A DNA stretch of 46,443 bases from a virus: positions 1 to 46,443 of IMG/VR virus record IMGVR_UViG_3300013102_000043; one strand, 5' to 3'. The translations under genes and the position numbers were made by a program. Position 1 is the stretch's first letter. Each line of letters starts with the position of its first letter. This document shows positions 4,046-44,321 of this stretch, piece after piece. The notes beneath the pieces were generated by a model. It searched no databases, had not been told where the DNA came from, and saw only the letters and a list, made by a program, of their open reading frames with translations.

Positions 4046-4072
4046 AACAAAAAGCCCGGCGTTGGCCGGGCT
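4046..4072 (-). terminator. Terminator of the immunity operon
   Basis: Read leftward, AGCCCGGC-CAAC-GCCGGGCT is followed by TTTTTGTT. It ends the cI-side transcript before it reaches pL, the place of lambda timm. Confidence 0.75.
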
Positions 4073-4077
4073 CGTTT

Positions 4078-4188
4078 TCAGTCGCGAATTCTTCGCCAAC
4101 GGATCTCGAATTTGCAGTCGTTTAGGTGTTCGATGCTTGCACCATTCCCCTTCAATGTCCTGCTTGCATGCCTCAGGGCTTTCGGCAT
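4078..4188 (-). CDS. Small basic protein, 36 aa
   Basis: MPKALRHASRTLKGNG at the start and CKFEIRWRRIRD at the end. The composition is strongly basic. The frame is open a little upstream (RNERRR) after a GGAG, so a non-ATG start is possible. It stops a few bases before the terminator at 4046-4072, as the last gene of the leftward immunity transcript would. The function is unknown. Short proteins of this look occur in Pseudomonas prophages, as far as I recall. Confidence 0.45.
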   Translation of the reverse strand: MPKALRHASRTLKGNGASIEHLNDCKFEIRWRRIRD

Positions 4189-4688
4189 GCGACGACGCTC
4201 GTTTCTCCTAGACCCTTAGCATCGCTTTCAGCGCGCTGACAAGCACGTAGCGAGTTCTTGGTTTGAATACCTCGGCTGAGAATGGTTGCGCGGTCCAGGC
4301 CTGCGCTATGCGCGGACAGTGTTAACTCGCCATATTTTTACTAGTGCGGAATCTAGGCACGATGTCCCGTTACGCACGAAAAGGGGTTGGTATAGCACGC
4401 GCGAGAGGCTGGTCAGAATTTTGAAGGGGAAGTTGGACGGGTAGAATTTCGGATTCAATATCGATCTGATTGAACACGGTTTTAAGGTGGGATAATGCTC
4501 TTAAATTTACAAGTTGATAACTTGATTTCAACTAAAATATAAGTATTACATTAATTATTGTCTCATGACGCGTCTACAAATAATGTGGCAGTGGGACGTT
4601 TAGATATAGAAGAGAAGCTCTATGCTTTTCGCGCTGCCACCGGAATTTATAATAGAATATCTGTCGCCCGCGACAATAAATTACTTTA
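4189..4688. other. Non-coding stretch downstream of the TOPRIM-like gene
   Basis: No convincing gene. The right part (from about 4480) is AT-rich like the ATPase/TOPRIM pair and marks the edge of that insertion. The left part has normal phage composition. It holds small palindromes, such as CAAGTT-GAT-AACTTG near 4510 and TGTCGC-CC-GCGACA at about 4662-4677. The second could be a weak leftward terminator for the TOPRIM-like gene. Confidence 0.4.
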
Positions 4689-5399
4689 TCAGCAGTCAGC
4701 ATTGTCCGAGGCTGTTTTACTAGCTGCTGGGATAAGTCGTTGTAATGCTTCTATAAATATCGTCAAACTCAGGCTTTGAGACTTTTTGTCTTCGATATCT
4801 TTAAGTCTTCTAATTTTTTTACAAATTATTGAGTATTCTTTGTACCGCTTCACGCTGCTAATGTTTTCTTTGGTTAGTAGGTGGGCTAAACGACGAGCGC
4901 AGGTATTTATTTGCGGCTGTTTTTTTGGGGTTGGCTCGTAGAAAGGCAAAATCCAACATTCAATCGAGTGAATTGATATTGCAAATATAATTTGATCCTG
5001 GTACTGGTTGTAAAATCCATCCGGGAATTTGCTAATTATCAAAGATGTTACTTCTGATATAATTTGTGCTTCGGGGATCTCTCCATTGGAGTCTGTCAAC
5101 TGAATACCAAAATTCTGGTGCCCCCCAGTATCAGTATCCATCTGTATAACAAGATATCGATTATAGGCCATGGCTTTATTAAGTGAGTTCTGGCAGGAGC
5201 AAAACTCGAAAACTCGTTCCCATCCCCCTTTTGGCCCATACCATGCGTTATCTGTTTCGTCAGGCTTGGGATGAAAGCGGTTTATGTAGATTTGGTTTTC
5301 TAAATTTTTCGCGAGCGTTGTATGGATTAGTCTTTCTATGACTGCGTGATCCGATACACCTTCAGTAACGAGGGCAAAGCTTGTCGCCTTAGAATCCAT
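4689..5399 (-). CDS. TOPRIM-like partner of the AAA ATPase
   Basis: A 236-residue protein from the ATG at 5399. The frame also allows a GTG at 5411, but only the ATG has an AGGTGG upstream. Near the start FALVTEGVSDHAVIERLI gives the TOPRIM-style glutamate (E13), and YLVIQMDTDTGG gives a D-x-D (D88, D90). HSIECWILPF near residue 147 recalls the E-x-W segment of RloB and DUF4276-type TOPRIM proteins. Members of this fold act as nucleases or nucleotidyl-handling effectors. It overlaps the ATPase gene by 11 bp and is AT-rich. The likely role is effector of a two-gene phage-exclusion module. The family assignment is by motif only. Confidence 0.6.
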   Translation of the reverse strand: MDSKATSFALVTEGVSDHAVIERLIHTTLAKNLENQIYINRFHPKPDETDNAWYGPKGGWERVFEFCSCQNSLNKAMAYNRYLVIQMDTDTGGHQNFGIQLTDSNGEIPEAQIISEVTSLIISKFPDGFYNQYQDQIIFAISIHSIECWILPFYEPTPKKQPQINTCARRLAHLLTKENISSVKRYKEYSIICKKIRRLKDIEDKKSQSLSLTIFIEALQRLIPAASKTASDNADC

Positions 5400-6645
5400 T
5401 TGGTAGGCCACCTATCAATCCACTCATAAACATTTCAGATAGAGGAATCTTGTCGTCCTTGTCTTTTGTAATTCGCCTTACATTGCTAAATCCGTCAATA
5501 TCCCTCGAAACAACGAACAGGCGTTGGTCGTCGTCCGATAGATTTAATCCATCTAGGATCGCAGGATTGTGGGTTGTTAGGATTGCTTGTTTATTGTTTT
5601 TTTTAGAAAGATTAACTATTATTTGTATGAGTTTTCTGCATAGTTTTGGGTTTAGCGATGCATCAATGTTGTCAATTGCAAAAAAACTTGGGGTTAATTC
5701 GGTGGAGAATAACGCAAAGTAAAACGCTAAAAATAAAAAGCCTTCATTAGCACTTCTTTGGTCGAAGCTAGCATGGTCAGCATCTAGAAATCTGTCTTGA
5801 ATCTCGAGTGAGGCCGGCATGCTACCTTGTTCTGCTTTTATAGTTAATCCGTCAAACCAGTCGAGCAGGCGAAGAGAGCCATTTATACTGTTTATTGGAT
5901 CTTTGTTATCTGATTCAGATAATACATTTAAAAGTTTAATCAAGCCTTCGCCATTTATTCCTAGAGGCTCTATTTGTCCTTCTTTGTCAAAAAGGCGGAG
6001 AGCTGTATTTTCCGGTGAATAAATAATAAAATCGCTAAGCTCTTTATATGGGGCCACTAACTCTTCTTGGTAGGAAGTAATAAAGTTGAAAAAGCTAGTG
6101 CTTGCGGAAATGGGTACCGTTATAGGAAGCGCTTTCTTTCCTCTTCTCTTTGGTTGCGATTTTTTGGACTCGTCGAGCGCTTTGCTCAGATTTTTTATAA
6201 CTTCAAGCATCTCATTTTTTGAAGTGGTCTTACTCTCAAGAAAATCTTGAAACTTTTGCGACAGAGCTCCCTCGCTGCCATCTTTTACTGAGGCGGTGTG
6301 CTCCCAGTTGGAATAGGGTTTATTGTCATTTTTCATTAAAAATGACACTGGGGCTTTGTCTTCGGGCGTTACATCAATGCTAATTATTTCAGATTCTGAA
6401 AAGCCTGGGAAGCGAGGTCTCATAAGCTGTGGCTGTGTAACCCGTATACCGCGAGAGATAAGAAACTCACTATCAAGCTTCCTAGCGCTCGCAGCACCAG
6501 CCAATGCAATGCCTTCAAGAATATTGCTCTTGCCTGCGCCATTTTCGCCCACGAAAACATTAATTCGGCCAAGAGAAATCTTTAAGTTGTCGATCGACTT
6601 AAAGTTTTGAATTTCGATCGTTTTAATCACTTGTCTTATATCCAT
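5389..6645 (-). CDS. AAA family ATPase (RecF/OLD-like, abortive-infection type)
   Basis: A 418-residue ABC-type ATPase. Near the start IEIQNFKSIDNLKISL is followed by Walker A GENGAGKS (33-40). RSANEG near 293 is the signature-like loop, FFAIDNID (321-328) the Walker B, and TTHNP with H359 the switch histidine. The usual Walker B glutamate is asparagine here (D-N). There is no TOPRIM domain in the same chain. That domain is supplied by the next gene, as in PARIS (AriA/AriB) and RloAB. The gene is AT-rich and lies directly downstream of cI, in the position of lambda rexA. The likely role is sensor/motor of a phage-exclusion system (inference). Confidence 0.75.
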   Translation of the reverse strand: MDIRQVIKTIEIQNFKSIDNLKISLGRINVFVGENGAGKSNILEGIALAGAASARKLDSEFLISRGIRVTQPQLMRPRFPGFSESEIISIDVTPEDKAPVSFLMKNDNKPYSNWEHTASVKDGSEGALSQKFQDFLESKTTSKNEMLEVIKNLSKALDESKKSQPKRRGKKALPITVPISASTSFFNFITSYQEELVAPYKELSDFIIYSPENTALRLFDKEGQIEPLGINGEGLIKLLNVLSESDNKDPINSINGSLRLLDWFDGLTIKAEQGSMPASLEIQDRFLDADHASFDQRSANEGFLFLAFYFALFSTELTPSFFAIDNIDASLNPKLCRKLIQIIVNLSKKNNKQAILTTHNPAILDGLNLSDDDQRLFVVSRDIDGFSNVRRITKDKDDKIPLSEMFMSGLIGGLPNGF

Positions 6646-6796
6646 AGTTCAATGGTGCTAAACAAGCACGTTGCTGAAAAGCAGCTTAGTGCGTTAGCGG
6701 GCGCGAAGCAAGGTTGCGATTCCGACACCGCCTGCGACACATCATACAAATTCAATTAGATTTTGGGTCCGGTGTCCTCGTAACGTTGTCATTGGG
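6646..6796. other. Spacer between cI and the ATPase gene
   Basis: About 150 bases with partial inverted repeats (GACACC near 6723 against GGTGTC near 6770). No T-run terminator is seen leftward, so read-through from cI into the ATPase gene is possible. Confidence 0.35.
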
Positions 6797-7558
6797 TTAT
6801 CGCGCGAACATTCCCCACCAGAAGACGTGCCCCAGTATCGCTATATTCTGATCCTGTATCTCAGTAAAGGTGTAATCCTCATCTGGATGCTCTTCCCGGT
6901 TAAAGCTGCGAAGTCGAATGCCAGAGGGCAGTCTATAGAGCTGCTTCACGCGAAGCTGACCATGATGGGTGATCGCATACATGTCGCCATCGACGATGTC
7001 ACCCAGCGAGCTCTTGCCTATGTTGATGCCTACGGTGGCGCCATCGCGCAGCACCGGCAGCATGCTGTTGCCGCTGACGACCACGCATTTCGCGTTGCTG
7101 AACATAACGTTGTTATGACGGAGGTCTTTCTTGAAGAAGCGTAGTTTGGCGGTGTCGCTTTCTTCGATCACAAATCGGCCCGAGCCGGCAGCCAATTCCA
7201 CTTCTCGGAGGAAAGGGACGTAGACCTCGTCATCGTCGAGAGGGGTATTGTCGTCCCAAGGCTTGATGTCCGAGAGGTGGACGTCAGCACGGATGGCTCG
7301 ACCAGAGCCTACCTCGGCCTCTGAAGCCGAAAGAATATTGCCCATTCTATCGCTTAAGCCCCAGTGAGCAGGCTTCACAACGTCCGAGAAATACTCAATC
7401 AGCTCCATGAGCTTCGACTTATCGATTCGACCCGTCTTCACCCAGCCTTGGACAGACGGACCTGCCACGCCGAAATCTTCGGCGAGCTTCTTCTTTGTAA
7501 CGCGTTTGGCGACCCGAGCTTGCTCGATGGCTGCGCCTAATTCAGGACCTGTAAGCAT
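6797..7558 (-). CDS. cI: CI-type repressor with S24 autopeptidase domain
   Basis: A 253-residue repressor. Residues 20-50 form a helix-turn-helix (KKKLAEDFGVAGPSVQGWV). The C-terminal half is a LexA/S24 peptidase with cleavage site A124-G125 (ELAAGSGRF), nucleophile S165 (SGNSMLPVLRDG) and K205 (LRVKQLYR). It keeps the prophage silent and should self-cleave with RecA after DNA damage. It is divergent from cro across the operator region, and downstream of it lie the ATPase and TOPRIM-like genes. All key residues are present. Confidence 0.92.
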   Translation of the reverse strand: MLTGPELGAAIEQARVAKRVTKKKLAEDFGVAGPSVQGWVKTGRIDKSKLMELIEYFSDVVKPAHWGLSDRMGNILSASEAEVGSGRAIRADVHLSDIKPWDDNTPLDDDEVYVPFLREVELAAGSGRFVIEESDTAKLRFFKKDLRHNNVMFSNAKCVVVSGNSMLPVLRDGATVGINIGKSSLGDIVDGDMYAITHHGQLRVKQLYRLPSGIRLRSFNREEHPDEDYTFTEIQDQNIAILGHVFWWGMFAR

Positions 7559-14011: not shown

Positions 14012-14278
14012 ATTGCCCGCAAGAAACTATCCGCCGTATCCAAGGCGGCCCTTGGGAAGACCTGGACACTGATAAGCCAGCATTTGCGGTGCTACAAGAA
14101 AACAACGGCAGCCCGCGCACCCTGCACACCAATGCTTATAGGGTGGCGCGAGACAGAACTGCGAGATCGATGCATAAGGGCGTCGACGCTGTGAAGGCCT
14201 TCGGCAGACAGGAGGGGAAAGACCCTCACACCTATTTCGGGCCTCGCATTAAGCGGGGCCTTTCGCGTCAGTCAGAAT
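14012..14278. other. Non-coding region before the lysis genes
   Basis: No supported gene. A rightward hairpin at 14240-14264 (GCCTCGC-loop-GCGGGGC, then TTT) resembles the terminator at 14603-14630. The late promoter and antiterminator-loading site are expected in or near this stretch, but I could not assign them. Confidence 0.4.
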
Positions 14279-42067: not shown

Positions 42068-42250
42068 ATGTACGCGATTTCGGAAAACGGATGGAGATCA
42101 GTAGGAGATAGCAATGAAATTGCTGAGGGGGAGGTTTTAGTAGATGATATTCCTAAATGGTTGTCTGAGAAAGTTAGATCTGACGAACTGAAGTATATGG
42201 AAGGGCTCGATGAGCCCCTCGATCGAGTGATTATGAGAAAGCTCCTCTAG
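42068..42250 (+). CDS. Small protein after the fibre, 60 aa
   Basis: Start ATG at 42068 with GAGAGG upstream. MYAISENGWRSVGDSNEIAE opens the protein. It is acidic and soluble, AT-rich like the fibre end, and could be a fibre-assembly helper or partner of that fibre tip. Not recognised. Confidence 0.65.
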   Translation: MYAISENGWRSVGDSNEIAEGEVLVDDIPKWLSEKVRSDELKYMEGLDEPLDRVIMRKLL

Positions 42251-43227
42251 CTATCGGCTTTAACCTGAATTGATTCAGAGTTAATAATCTTTCGTTTTTT
42301 CTTAAGTGACAGGGCCGGCTTTTCTACCGCGAACCAGCTGAAAAGGGATACAGCTATTAGTACTGGTGCACCCACAAAGAACATACCCTCAAATGAGCTA
42401 GGAACAAGTTTTGACGACATATAGAATATAGGGTCATGAAACACGTATACCCCATATGAAATATCGAATGGCATTTTCGGTAGGGATGGTGCATTTAAGC
42501 ACAGGTTCAACGCTAGAAAACCACCAATGGGAACCATGTACCAAGCTTGCGGAGGGAGATGGTAGTATATGTTTAGCGCTGTTACGAGTATCAGAACAAA
42601 GGCGAGCAATAACCAAGGTAGTTTTGAAAGTTGTTCCTTGTATAGAAAAACAAGGTTTCCGGTAAATAGTGCTGGGATGAGGTTTGTTATGCGCCATACT
42701 GGCTCTTGCTGGTCAAATACTGCTGCAATGCCGCATGAAACTACAAAGCAGCTCCAAATTATTATTTTGTGGTTGTATGCCCTCATTGCAATAAGCAATG
42801 CCATGATGGCGTAAGCTATTTCCTCCCAAAGTAGCGACCAAAGTGAACCGTTGCCGCCCGGACTGGATAGCAGCATTCCACCGCCTATGTAAATTTTGAT
42901 GGAGCCAATAACGCCGATATAGAAGCCCCACACAAAACCACTAACGACTAACGAAAGTATTAAAGCTGGAAGTATCCTCAAGGCTCTTTTTTGCATAAAG
43001 TGAAACCAGCTTCTGCTCGATGCAAAGCTGTTGAACATAAGGTAGCCAGAGAGAGCCAAAAACGTTGGAACCATTGGAAACGGGATCGCTCCAAAAGGAA
43101 CGTCCTCGCCATTAACCACTCTGGAAAAGTAGCCAGCATGAAAGTAAGCGACGGAAAACGACAAAAAAAGTCGAAGCCAGTCAAAGTTTGAATTCCTATT
43201 AGCCTCAAGCGGCTGCCGACTGGTCAT
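42247..43227 (-). CDS. Acyltransferase-3 family membrane protein (putative O-antigen acetyltransferase)
   Basis: A 326-residue polytopic protein. NSNFDWLRLFLSFSVAYFHA near the N-terminus carries the family's R-x10-H-like start (LRLFLS...YFH), and about ten membrane spans follow. The family moves acyl groups onto surface sugars. Encoded by phages it usually changes the O-antigen and blocks further adsorption. It is opposite-strand, AT-rich, and adjacent to the fibre. RBS AAGGACG before the ATG at 43227. The substrate cannot be told from sequence. Confidence 0.85.
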   Translation of the reverse strand: MTSRQPLEANRNSNFDWLRLFLSFSVAYFHAGYFSRVVNGEDVPFGAIPFPMVPTFLALSGYLMFNSFASSRSWFHFMQKRALRILPALILSLVVSGFVWGFYIGVIGSIKIYIGGGMLLSSPGGNGSLWSLLWEEIAYAIMALLIAMRAYNHKIIIWSCFVVSCGIAAVFDQQEPVWRITNLIPALFTGNLVFLYKEQLSKLPWLLLAFVLILVTALNIYYHLPPQAWYMVPIGGFLALNLCLNAPSLPKMPFDISYGVYVFHDPIFYMSSKLVPSSFEGMFFVGAPVLIAVSLFSWFAVEKPALSLKKKRKIINSESIQVKADS

Positions 43228-43360: not shown

Positions 43361-43786
43361 ATGACAGTATATGAAAAAGACCGCGACATCCTCGCACGCA
43401 CGCTATGGGGGGAGGCTCGAGGCGAGAGTCTCGCCGGCCAGATTGCCGTGGCCTGGACCATCCGCAATCGCGTCAACGACGGTAAGGCCAAGTCGTGGTG
43501 GGGTGAGGGTTACGCCGGCGTGTGCCAGAAGCCGTACCAGTTCAGCTGCTGGAACAAGAGCGACCCAAACTATGCCTACCTGAGTGGCGCGAAGCCAATC
43601 CCGTTCCGTGAGTTTGCTCAGGCGCAGATCGCCGCTGACCAGGTGATTGCAGGCAGGGTGCCTGATCCTACTGGCGGCGCCACCCATTACTACGCGACCA
43701 CCATGCTGAAGCCACCAGTCTGGGCGAAAGGTGCCAAGCAGACGCTGAAGCTCGGTCATCACGTCTTCTTTAGGGATGTGCCTTAG
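43361..43786 (+). CDS. Endolysin, SleB-type cell wall hydrolase
   Basis: A 141-residue protein. DRDILARTLWGEARGESLAG holds the catalytic glutamate region of the SleB/hydrolase_2 fold. VAWTIRNRVND, then YQFSCWNKSDPNY and GATHYYATTMLKPPVWAKGA complete it. There is no signal peptide or membrane anchor, so it needs a holin (at 14718/15047) to reach the peptidoglycan. It is the only lysin seen and is far from the holins. Confidence 0.92.
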   Translation: MTVYEKDRDILARTLWGEARGESLAGQIAVAWTIRNRVNDGKAKSWWGEGYAGVCQKPYQFSCWNKSDPNYAYLSGAKPIPFREFAQAQIAADQVIAGRVPDPTGGATHYYATTMLKPPVWAKGAKQTLKLGHHVFFRDVP

Positions 43787-44321
43787 CAAGCGGCATTTGT
43801 GGGCCACTATCAAATTCGAATCTCTCGCCGTAGATCGAGCAATATTCAGTGTGGAGACGAAGATGTCTTTCTATGTAGTCGTCAATAGGCTCTTTCGCAT
43901 TTGTAAACTGCAGTTCCACCAGCTGGATGTTGTGACCAACTGGAAGCATAAATGGAGTATTTATAGACTCTATTGAAATTATTTTGCACCTGTCGAGACT
44001 TCCAAATGCATTCTTAATTAGGGCTTCGCCTGACCCATCAACTTTGGAGTGATTTTTATAAATGCTTAGCGCAGCTATTCTTGCGGGTCCAAGTCCGTCA
44101 TTGCGTAAGGTTATTGTAAACAGGTTGTCGTTCTCTTCGCTGTGAACTGCTAGATGAGGCCGTACCGACAGCCGATTATGTTTTCGTGACAGGTGCGACT
44201 GGTAAATTGTGGCAAATAAAGCGAGAAGCGCAATAATTCCCGAAGCTATAGCGGGTATATCGTCAGTCCAGTTGGTTTCAGGTGCCGCATTGATGAGTAT
44301 GTATTGAATGTCGTTGTTCAC
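43770..44321 (-). CDS. Membrane-anchored hypothetical protein, 183 aa
   Basis: Starts at a GTG at 44321 (weak RBS). MNNDIQYILINAAPETNWTD is followed by one membrane span (about 25-44, IPAIASGIIALLALFATIYQ) and a cytoplasmic, beta-type domain (LFTITLRNDGLGPARIAALS). It overlaps the end of the endolysin by 17 bp on the opposite strand. AT-rich. A moron; possible superinfection-exclusion role by context. Confidence 0.65.
   Translation of the reverse strand: MNNDIQYILINAAPETNWTDDIPAIASGIIALLALFATIYQSHLSRKHNRLSVRPHLAVHSEENDNLFTITLRNDGLGPARIAALSIYKNHSKVDGSGEALIKNAFGSLDRCKIISIESINTPFMLPVGHNIQLVELQFTNAKEPIDDYIERHLRLHTEYCSIYGERFEFDSGPQMPLAKAHP

Follow-up and report, generated by a model that had tools for sequence, protein, structure and literature searches.

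What is the function of two AT-rich genes that lie behind the cI-type repressor gene of a lambdoid phage? The window, which is the whole stretch of DNA analysed, is a 46,443-base IMG/VR virus record similar to PseuP_222, phiAH14a, Medea1 and other lambdoid Pseudomonas siphophages. The initial annotation had read the pair as a candidate new phage-exclusion system expressed in the lysogen, made up of an ABC ATPase and a TOPRIM-like effector in the place of lambda rexAB. The genes concerned are the following:

6797-7558, minus strand: cI-type repressor (Peptidase_S24, E 2e-17; PHROG transcriptional repressor, E 2e-37; 51 related loci)
5389-6645, minus strand: ATPase gene, 418 aa, PDC-M31A-type ABC ATPase
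5389-5399, minus strand: overlap of the two genes (stop codon of the ATPase, start codon of the effector), 11 bp, from sequence
4689-5399, minus strand: effector gene, 236 aa, PDC-M31B-type, TOPRIM/DUF4276/RloB-like

The two-gene AT-rich operon behind cI is real. As had been annotated, the pair is AT-rich, the two genes overlap by 11 bp, and they lie downstream of cI on its strand; the GC content is 40.2% for the pair vs 56.6% for the window, and 151 bp separate cI from the ATPase gene. Both reading frames are intact. The effector ORF extends from 4689 to 5411 (minus strand); the ATG at 5399, which yields the 236-aa protein, has a good ribosome-binding site (AGGTGG, 9-14 nt 5′ of the ATG), and the overlap makes translational coupling of the two genes likely. 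An alternative GTG start of the ATPase gene at 6630, where most homologues begin, would give 413 aa. The two ORFs are not a product of chance, because homologues of both recur in the same arrangement on plasmids, on prophage contigs and in a cyanobacterium.

Elsewhere in the window two minus-strand genes (42247-43227 and 43770-44321) stand among the late plus-strand genes and are possibly lysogenic-conversion genes; the former has, as read by eye, an acyltransferase-like N-terminus. An Rfam Proteo-phage-1 RNA matches at 14034-14113 on the plus strand (E 5.2e-8).

The 418-aa protein is an SMC/Rad50/PtuA-type ABC ATPase. The Walker A (GENGAGKS, 33-40) and H-loop (TTHNP, 357-361) motifs named in the initial annotation were found, together with a signature-like SANEGFLF (298-305), and all three are intact. 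Pfam assigns the protein to AAA_21 (E 1.2e-18) and AAA_15, and its AlphaFold2 model (pLDDT 77.9) retrieved the retron I-A ATPase, Rad50, SMC and PtuA with Foldseek (E 1e-13 to 1e-11). Among PADLOC models PDC-M31A scored best (E 6.5e-75), followed by AriA (E 6.9e-26); AbiLi also matched (E 8e-22).

The invariant residues of the 236-aa partner, the order of elements in its model and its hhalign scores lead us to conclude that it is a TOPRIM protein of the DUF4276/RloB clan, not of the AriB type. The annotated E13 and D88-x-D90 are accompanied by G14, D17, an HSxECW motif (144-149) and K184; E13, G14, D17, D88 and D90 are kept in every one of 18 pairs, at identities down to 16-17%. The elements of the AlphaFold2 model (pLDDT 83.7, pTM 0.84) follow each other as strand 1, E13, helix, strand, helices, strand 3, helix and strand, with D88/D90 ending strand 3, which is the beta-alpha order of a TOPRIM domain. 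The single sequence matched Pfam families below cut-off (RloB with 18 bits vs the curated 31.5; DUF3226 with 14 bits), whereas its homologues match DUF4276 (best E 2.5e-7), RloB, DUF3226 and OLD-like TOPRIM; 11 of the 17 homologues match DUF4276 and 11 match RloB (E up to 1). In hhalign comparisons with alignments built for this analysis, controlled by column shuffling, the effector profile scored 43.8 against DUF4276 (probability 83%; best of 60 shuffles 18.4) and 40.7 against RloB (probability 68%; best shuffle 18.1), whereas the score of 15.3 against DUF4435, the AriB type, whose alignment was small and mixed, was at noise level (shuffles up to 17.7).

Structure prediction and profile comparison had both been proposed with the initial annotation; the former gave the TOPRIM order of elements, the latter a match to DUF4276 and RloB but not to the AriB type, and the earlier caution that the effector is not clearly AriB proved justified, as neither an AriB nor a DUF4435 match was obtained. 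Foldseek comparison of the effector model with the PDB returned mostly weak Rossmann-like matches headed by GajA (8wy4, E 0.033; 8x5i, E 0.068) and none below E 1e-3, and sequence searches with the single sequence and with the profile did not match a solved structure. The effector is predicted to be a metal-dependent nuclease: the model and the residues support the fold and the active site, from which we infer the activity.

The claim of novelty did not stand. Judged by sequence, the pair is a member of an already listed candidate family, PDC-M31 of PADLOC-DB 2.0, and we consider its membership and its architecture practically certain. The effector matches PDC-M31B (E 1.4e-8), as do all 17 aligned homologues. 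Using tblastn, we found both genes side by side on plasmids of Azospirillum, Acinetobacter, Paracoccus and Pseudanabaena, and, on a plasmid of Enterobacter, an ATPase match next to which a partner lies; a broader scan revealed further pairs, ten of them in viral contigs and one in the genome of a Microcoleus. Pairs of this type are carried on small mobilizable plasmids, and 8 of the 11 viral records carrying the pair encode an integrase. The ATPase gene always comes first, at an intergenic distance of -20 to +15 nt (18 pairs measured), and every full-length ATPase homologue checked, that of locus L009 included, has an adjacent effector. The distances among the ATPases and among the effectors co-vary (Spearman 0.72, a value reached in none of 5000 permutations). 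On an Enterobacter conjugative plasmid (L008:8081-11188) a CBASS-like set of SAVED-domain and ThiF genes comes after the pair. The Microcoleus effector homologue (L047, G001:C102:10680-11342) contains one in-frame TGA; its ATPase is intact.

PDC-M31 is rare in the sampled gammaproteobacteria, since the effector profile had no match in 385 genomes; the same profile did recover the Microcoleus relative. An effector-only scan of genome contigs gave no match, and a scan of genome contigs with the ATPase alignment yielded one true relative, the remainder being generic ABC ATPases. In named phage records tblastn did not detect the effector. A literature search, made mostly without subscription papers and preprints, found no paper naming PDC-M31 and none joining DUF4276, an ATPase and defence.

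The Walker B motif of the ATPase (FFAIDNID, 321-328) has Asn326 at the position expected for the catalytic Glu. In the motif table 16 of 18 homologues have Asn at this position and two have Ser, the latter being the Acinetobacter plasmid copies L007 and L010. In a profile alignment the Asn is paired with Gln of an SMC1 head structure and with Glu of a retron ATPase; Gln at this position of SMC1 is the usual hydrolysis-trap mutation. Glu is kept in the readable ATPases adjoining DUF4276 and RloB genes, and in the ATPase-DUF4435 fusions that we found (D-E-P-E). The sequences show the missing Glu to be a family-wide, unreported trait, and ATP hydrolysis would be expected to be slow or absent. Because all 18 sequences have lost the Glu, the PDC-M31 ATPase might form an ATP-locked clamp on the toxin, and the trigger would then be its forced opening or the loss of ATP, not a hydrolysis cycle. 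We regard this clamp as possible but doubtful; the conserved loss nevertheless leads to a specific prediction on how ATPase-TOPRIM pairs are held and triggered.

How the pair would be transcribed depends on three sites:

6646-6796, minus strand: cI-ATPase intergenic region, without terminator-like site and without consensus promoter
4661-4676, minus strand: weak hairpin just 3′ of the effector gene (z -0.29)
4052-4073, minus strand: strong hairpin terminator (-23 kcal/mol, z -3.8)

The pair had been placed before a terminator. This is correct for the strong hairpin at 4073-4052, which lies about 0.6 kb downstream of the effector gene inside conserved phage sequence and is likely to end a cI-ATPase-effector transcript. 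The adjacent hairpin at 4661-4676 was rejected as the effector's terminator on account of its weakness.

Comparison with related Pseudomonas phages showed that the pair occupies a region of variable content:

4185-6796, no strand assigned: swappable cargo slot behind cI, with conserved flanks and differing contents in 15 related Pseudomonas phage loci
3801-4184, no strand assigned: left flank of the slot, conserved at 80-93% identity (blastn) in loci L081-L084, L086 and L087

Shorter blastn matches to the left flank were found in nine other loci. The flank and cI are common to all fifteen, and the genes between them differ. The slot contains BstA in L088 and L091, HEC-04 in L090, PDC-M66 in L084 and PDC-S42 in L083; with the window included, known or candidate defence genes were found among the slot ORFs scanned in at least 7 of the 16 slots. 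For BstA, encoded behind cI, abortive infection has been demonstrated, and the authors of that work described the region behind cI, lambda's rexAB place, as a hotspot (PMC8585504). HEC-04, in which an ATPase is fused to a TOPRIM domain, acts against T4 and T5 (PMC12111858), and the RexAB-type defence of a Pseudomonas putida prophage belongs to the operon of a CI-like repressor and lies behind it (PMC12894663).

Several other slot contents deserve mention. The BstA homologue of L091 has an identical counterpart in PseuP_222, encoded behind cI and listed as 'hypothetical protein' (L043:5397-6314, minus strand). In L081 (6853-9513) and L082 (7186-9858) AT-rich genes encode HSDR_N- and S1-domain proteins (886 and 890 aa) without a PADLOC match; these are possibly unlisted defence genes. 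An AT-rich three-gene cassette (approximately 340-403, 108-110 and 159-167 aa) is present in L096 (5631-7638) and L099 (6570-8393); neither Pfam nor PADLOC gave a match for its first protein, nor did PADLOC for the second protein of L096. L089 (7544-8826) has an AT-rich two-gene cassette (280 and 147 aa), of which the larger protein matches neither Pfam nor PADLOC.

The region behind cI in these Pseudomonas phages is a general slot for exclusion genes, of which BstA and HEC-04 are proven and others are unnamed. The rex analogy for the pair's place, which the initial annotation had drawn, is well supported: the pair is on the same strand behind cI, no terminator intervenes, and the slot is variable in related phages. 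As a rule for PDC-M31 the rex position was rejected. Other prophage copies lie near the ends or away from the repressor, and therefore co-expression with cI would be specific to the window phage, and the position informs on this phage's cargo slot and not on PDC-M31.

The earlier reading of a lysogen-expressed exclusion module is well supported by this context, and it is strengthened by the presence of BstA, HEC-04, PDC-M66, PDC-S42 and HSDR_N-type proteins in the slots of sister phages. We consider phage exclusion a highly probable function of the pair. The best explanation overall, which we hold to be probable, is an abortive-infection module expressed in the lysogen, in which an ATPase restrains, and serves as sensor for, a toxic TOPRIM nuclease. 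Some caution is advised by two PADLOC-DB entries: the candidate PDC-M63, and PDC-S04, gave no defence in the native host (PMC12409345), and since PDC-M63 was inactive when tested, defence by PDC-M31 is not to be taken as proven.

The pair would be expressed in the lysogen together with cI. An ATP-bound dimer or multimer of the ATPase would bind the TOPRIM protein and keep it inactive, as suggested by the AbiL, RloB-type and PARIS pairs. The proposal that the ATPase restrains the effector is based on two analogies: in Escherichia coli an AAA ATPase neutralises its partner, an RloB-type TOPRIM toxin (PMC10440598), and the Toprim protein AriB cuts tRNA once released from AriA (PMC12409363). A product or activity of the infecting phage would then release or activate the nuclease, which would cut an essential host nucleic acid, and this cleavage would abort the infection. 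On balance we favour this order of restraint, release, cleavage and abortive infection, if by little. The nucleic acid would most likely be tRNA or another RNA by analogy with AriB, DNA being possible; we put forward RNA as the substrate tentatively, at somewhat less than even chances, and tRNA as the target is suggested by the analogy only.

A trigger of the PARIS kind, in which the ATPase as an AriA-like hexamer senses a specific anti-restriction protein (Ocr, for example) and sets free an effector that cuts tRNA, would agree with the two-gene order, with AriA being the second-best PADLOC family for the ATPase and with the TOPRIM residues of the effector. We think it unlikely, as the effector has no AriB match, its DUF4435 score does not exceed that of shuffled profiles, and the ATPase has Asn where the ATPase-DUF4435 fusions keep the Glu of Walker B. 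Quite unlikely, in our judgement, is a plain toxin-antitoxin or addiction module, in which the ATPase would neutralise the TOPRIM toxin and the pair would merely stabilise the element carrying it. Neutralisation of an RloB-type toxin by its AAA partner (PMC10440598) and the homologues on small mobilizable plasmids speak for such a module, but an integrated prophage would gain little from it, and the slot holds defence genes in sister phages. The pair could also control superinfection or lysogeny in the phage's own cycle, acting for instance on related phages or in DNA repair at induction and not in the exclusion of unrelated phages. We judge this very unlikely: the pair adjoins cI and combines an SMC/Rad50-type ATPase with a nuclease-like partner, but most homologous pairs are away from a repressor, many of them on plasmids, and the slot contents of sister phages are unrelated. 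It is highly improbable that the pair is a horizontally acquired passenger without expression or function in the window phage, as its deviating GC content, the lack of a consensus promoter and the absent catalytic Glu might suggest, because both frames and all other motifs are intact, the Glu is missing throughout the family (Asn in 16 and Ser in 2 of 18), the effector has a good ribosome-binding site and no terminator follows cI.

The abortive-infection module that we favour can be compared with several known systems. Lambda rexAB, RexABpp of P. putida and BstA are likewise exclusion genes located behind a prophage repressor on the same strand, but their proteins and mechanisms are unrelated to the window pair. 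HEC-04/IbfA and OLD/GajA also combine ATPase and TOPRIM functions, and HEC-04 occupies the same slot downstream of cI; they are, however, single fused polypeptides with a TOPRIM domain of another subfamily, and a fused OLD-type protein was rejected for the window, where two overlapping genes encode two proteins. PARIS likewise consists of two genes, the ABC ATPase (AriA) first and the TOPRIM effector (AriB) second. Membership in PARIS was rejected on the AriB and DUF4435 results and on the AriA match, which is much weaker than that to PDC-M31A; in addition, the window ATPase has lost the Walker B Glu. AbiL (AbiLi/AbiLii), RloA/RloB and NetFlax D29/D44 similarly pair an AAA ATPase with an RloB-type TOPRIM protein and have EG, DxD and NPCFExW/HSxECW motifs in common with the window effector, but this effector does not match AbiLii and stays under the cut-off of RloB proper (PF13707), and the readable ATPases next to RloB keep the Walker B D-E, whereas the window ATPase has Asn. 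Both proteins match PDC-M31 in the same order and at similar sizes, no departure being seen among the features compared, and the pair is a compact example of this candidate defence family in a temperate phage.
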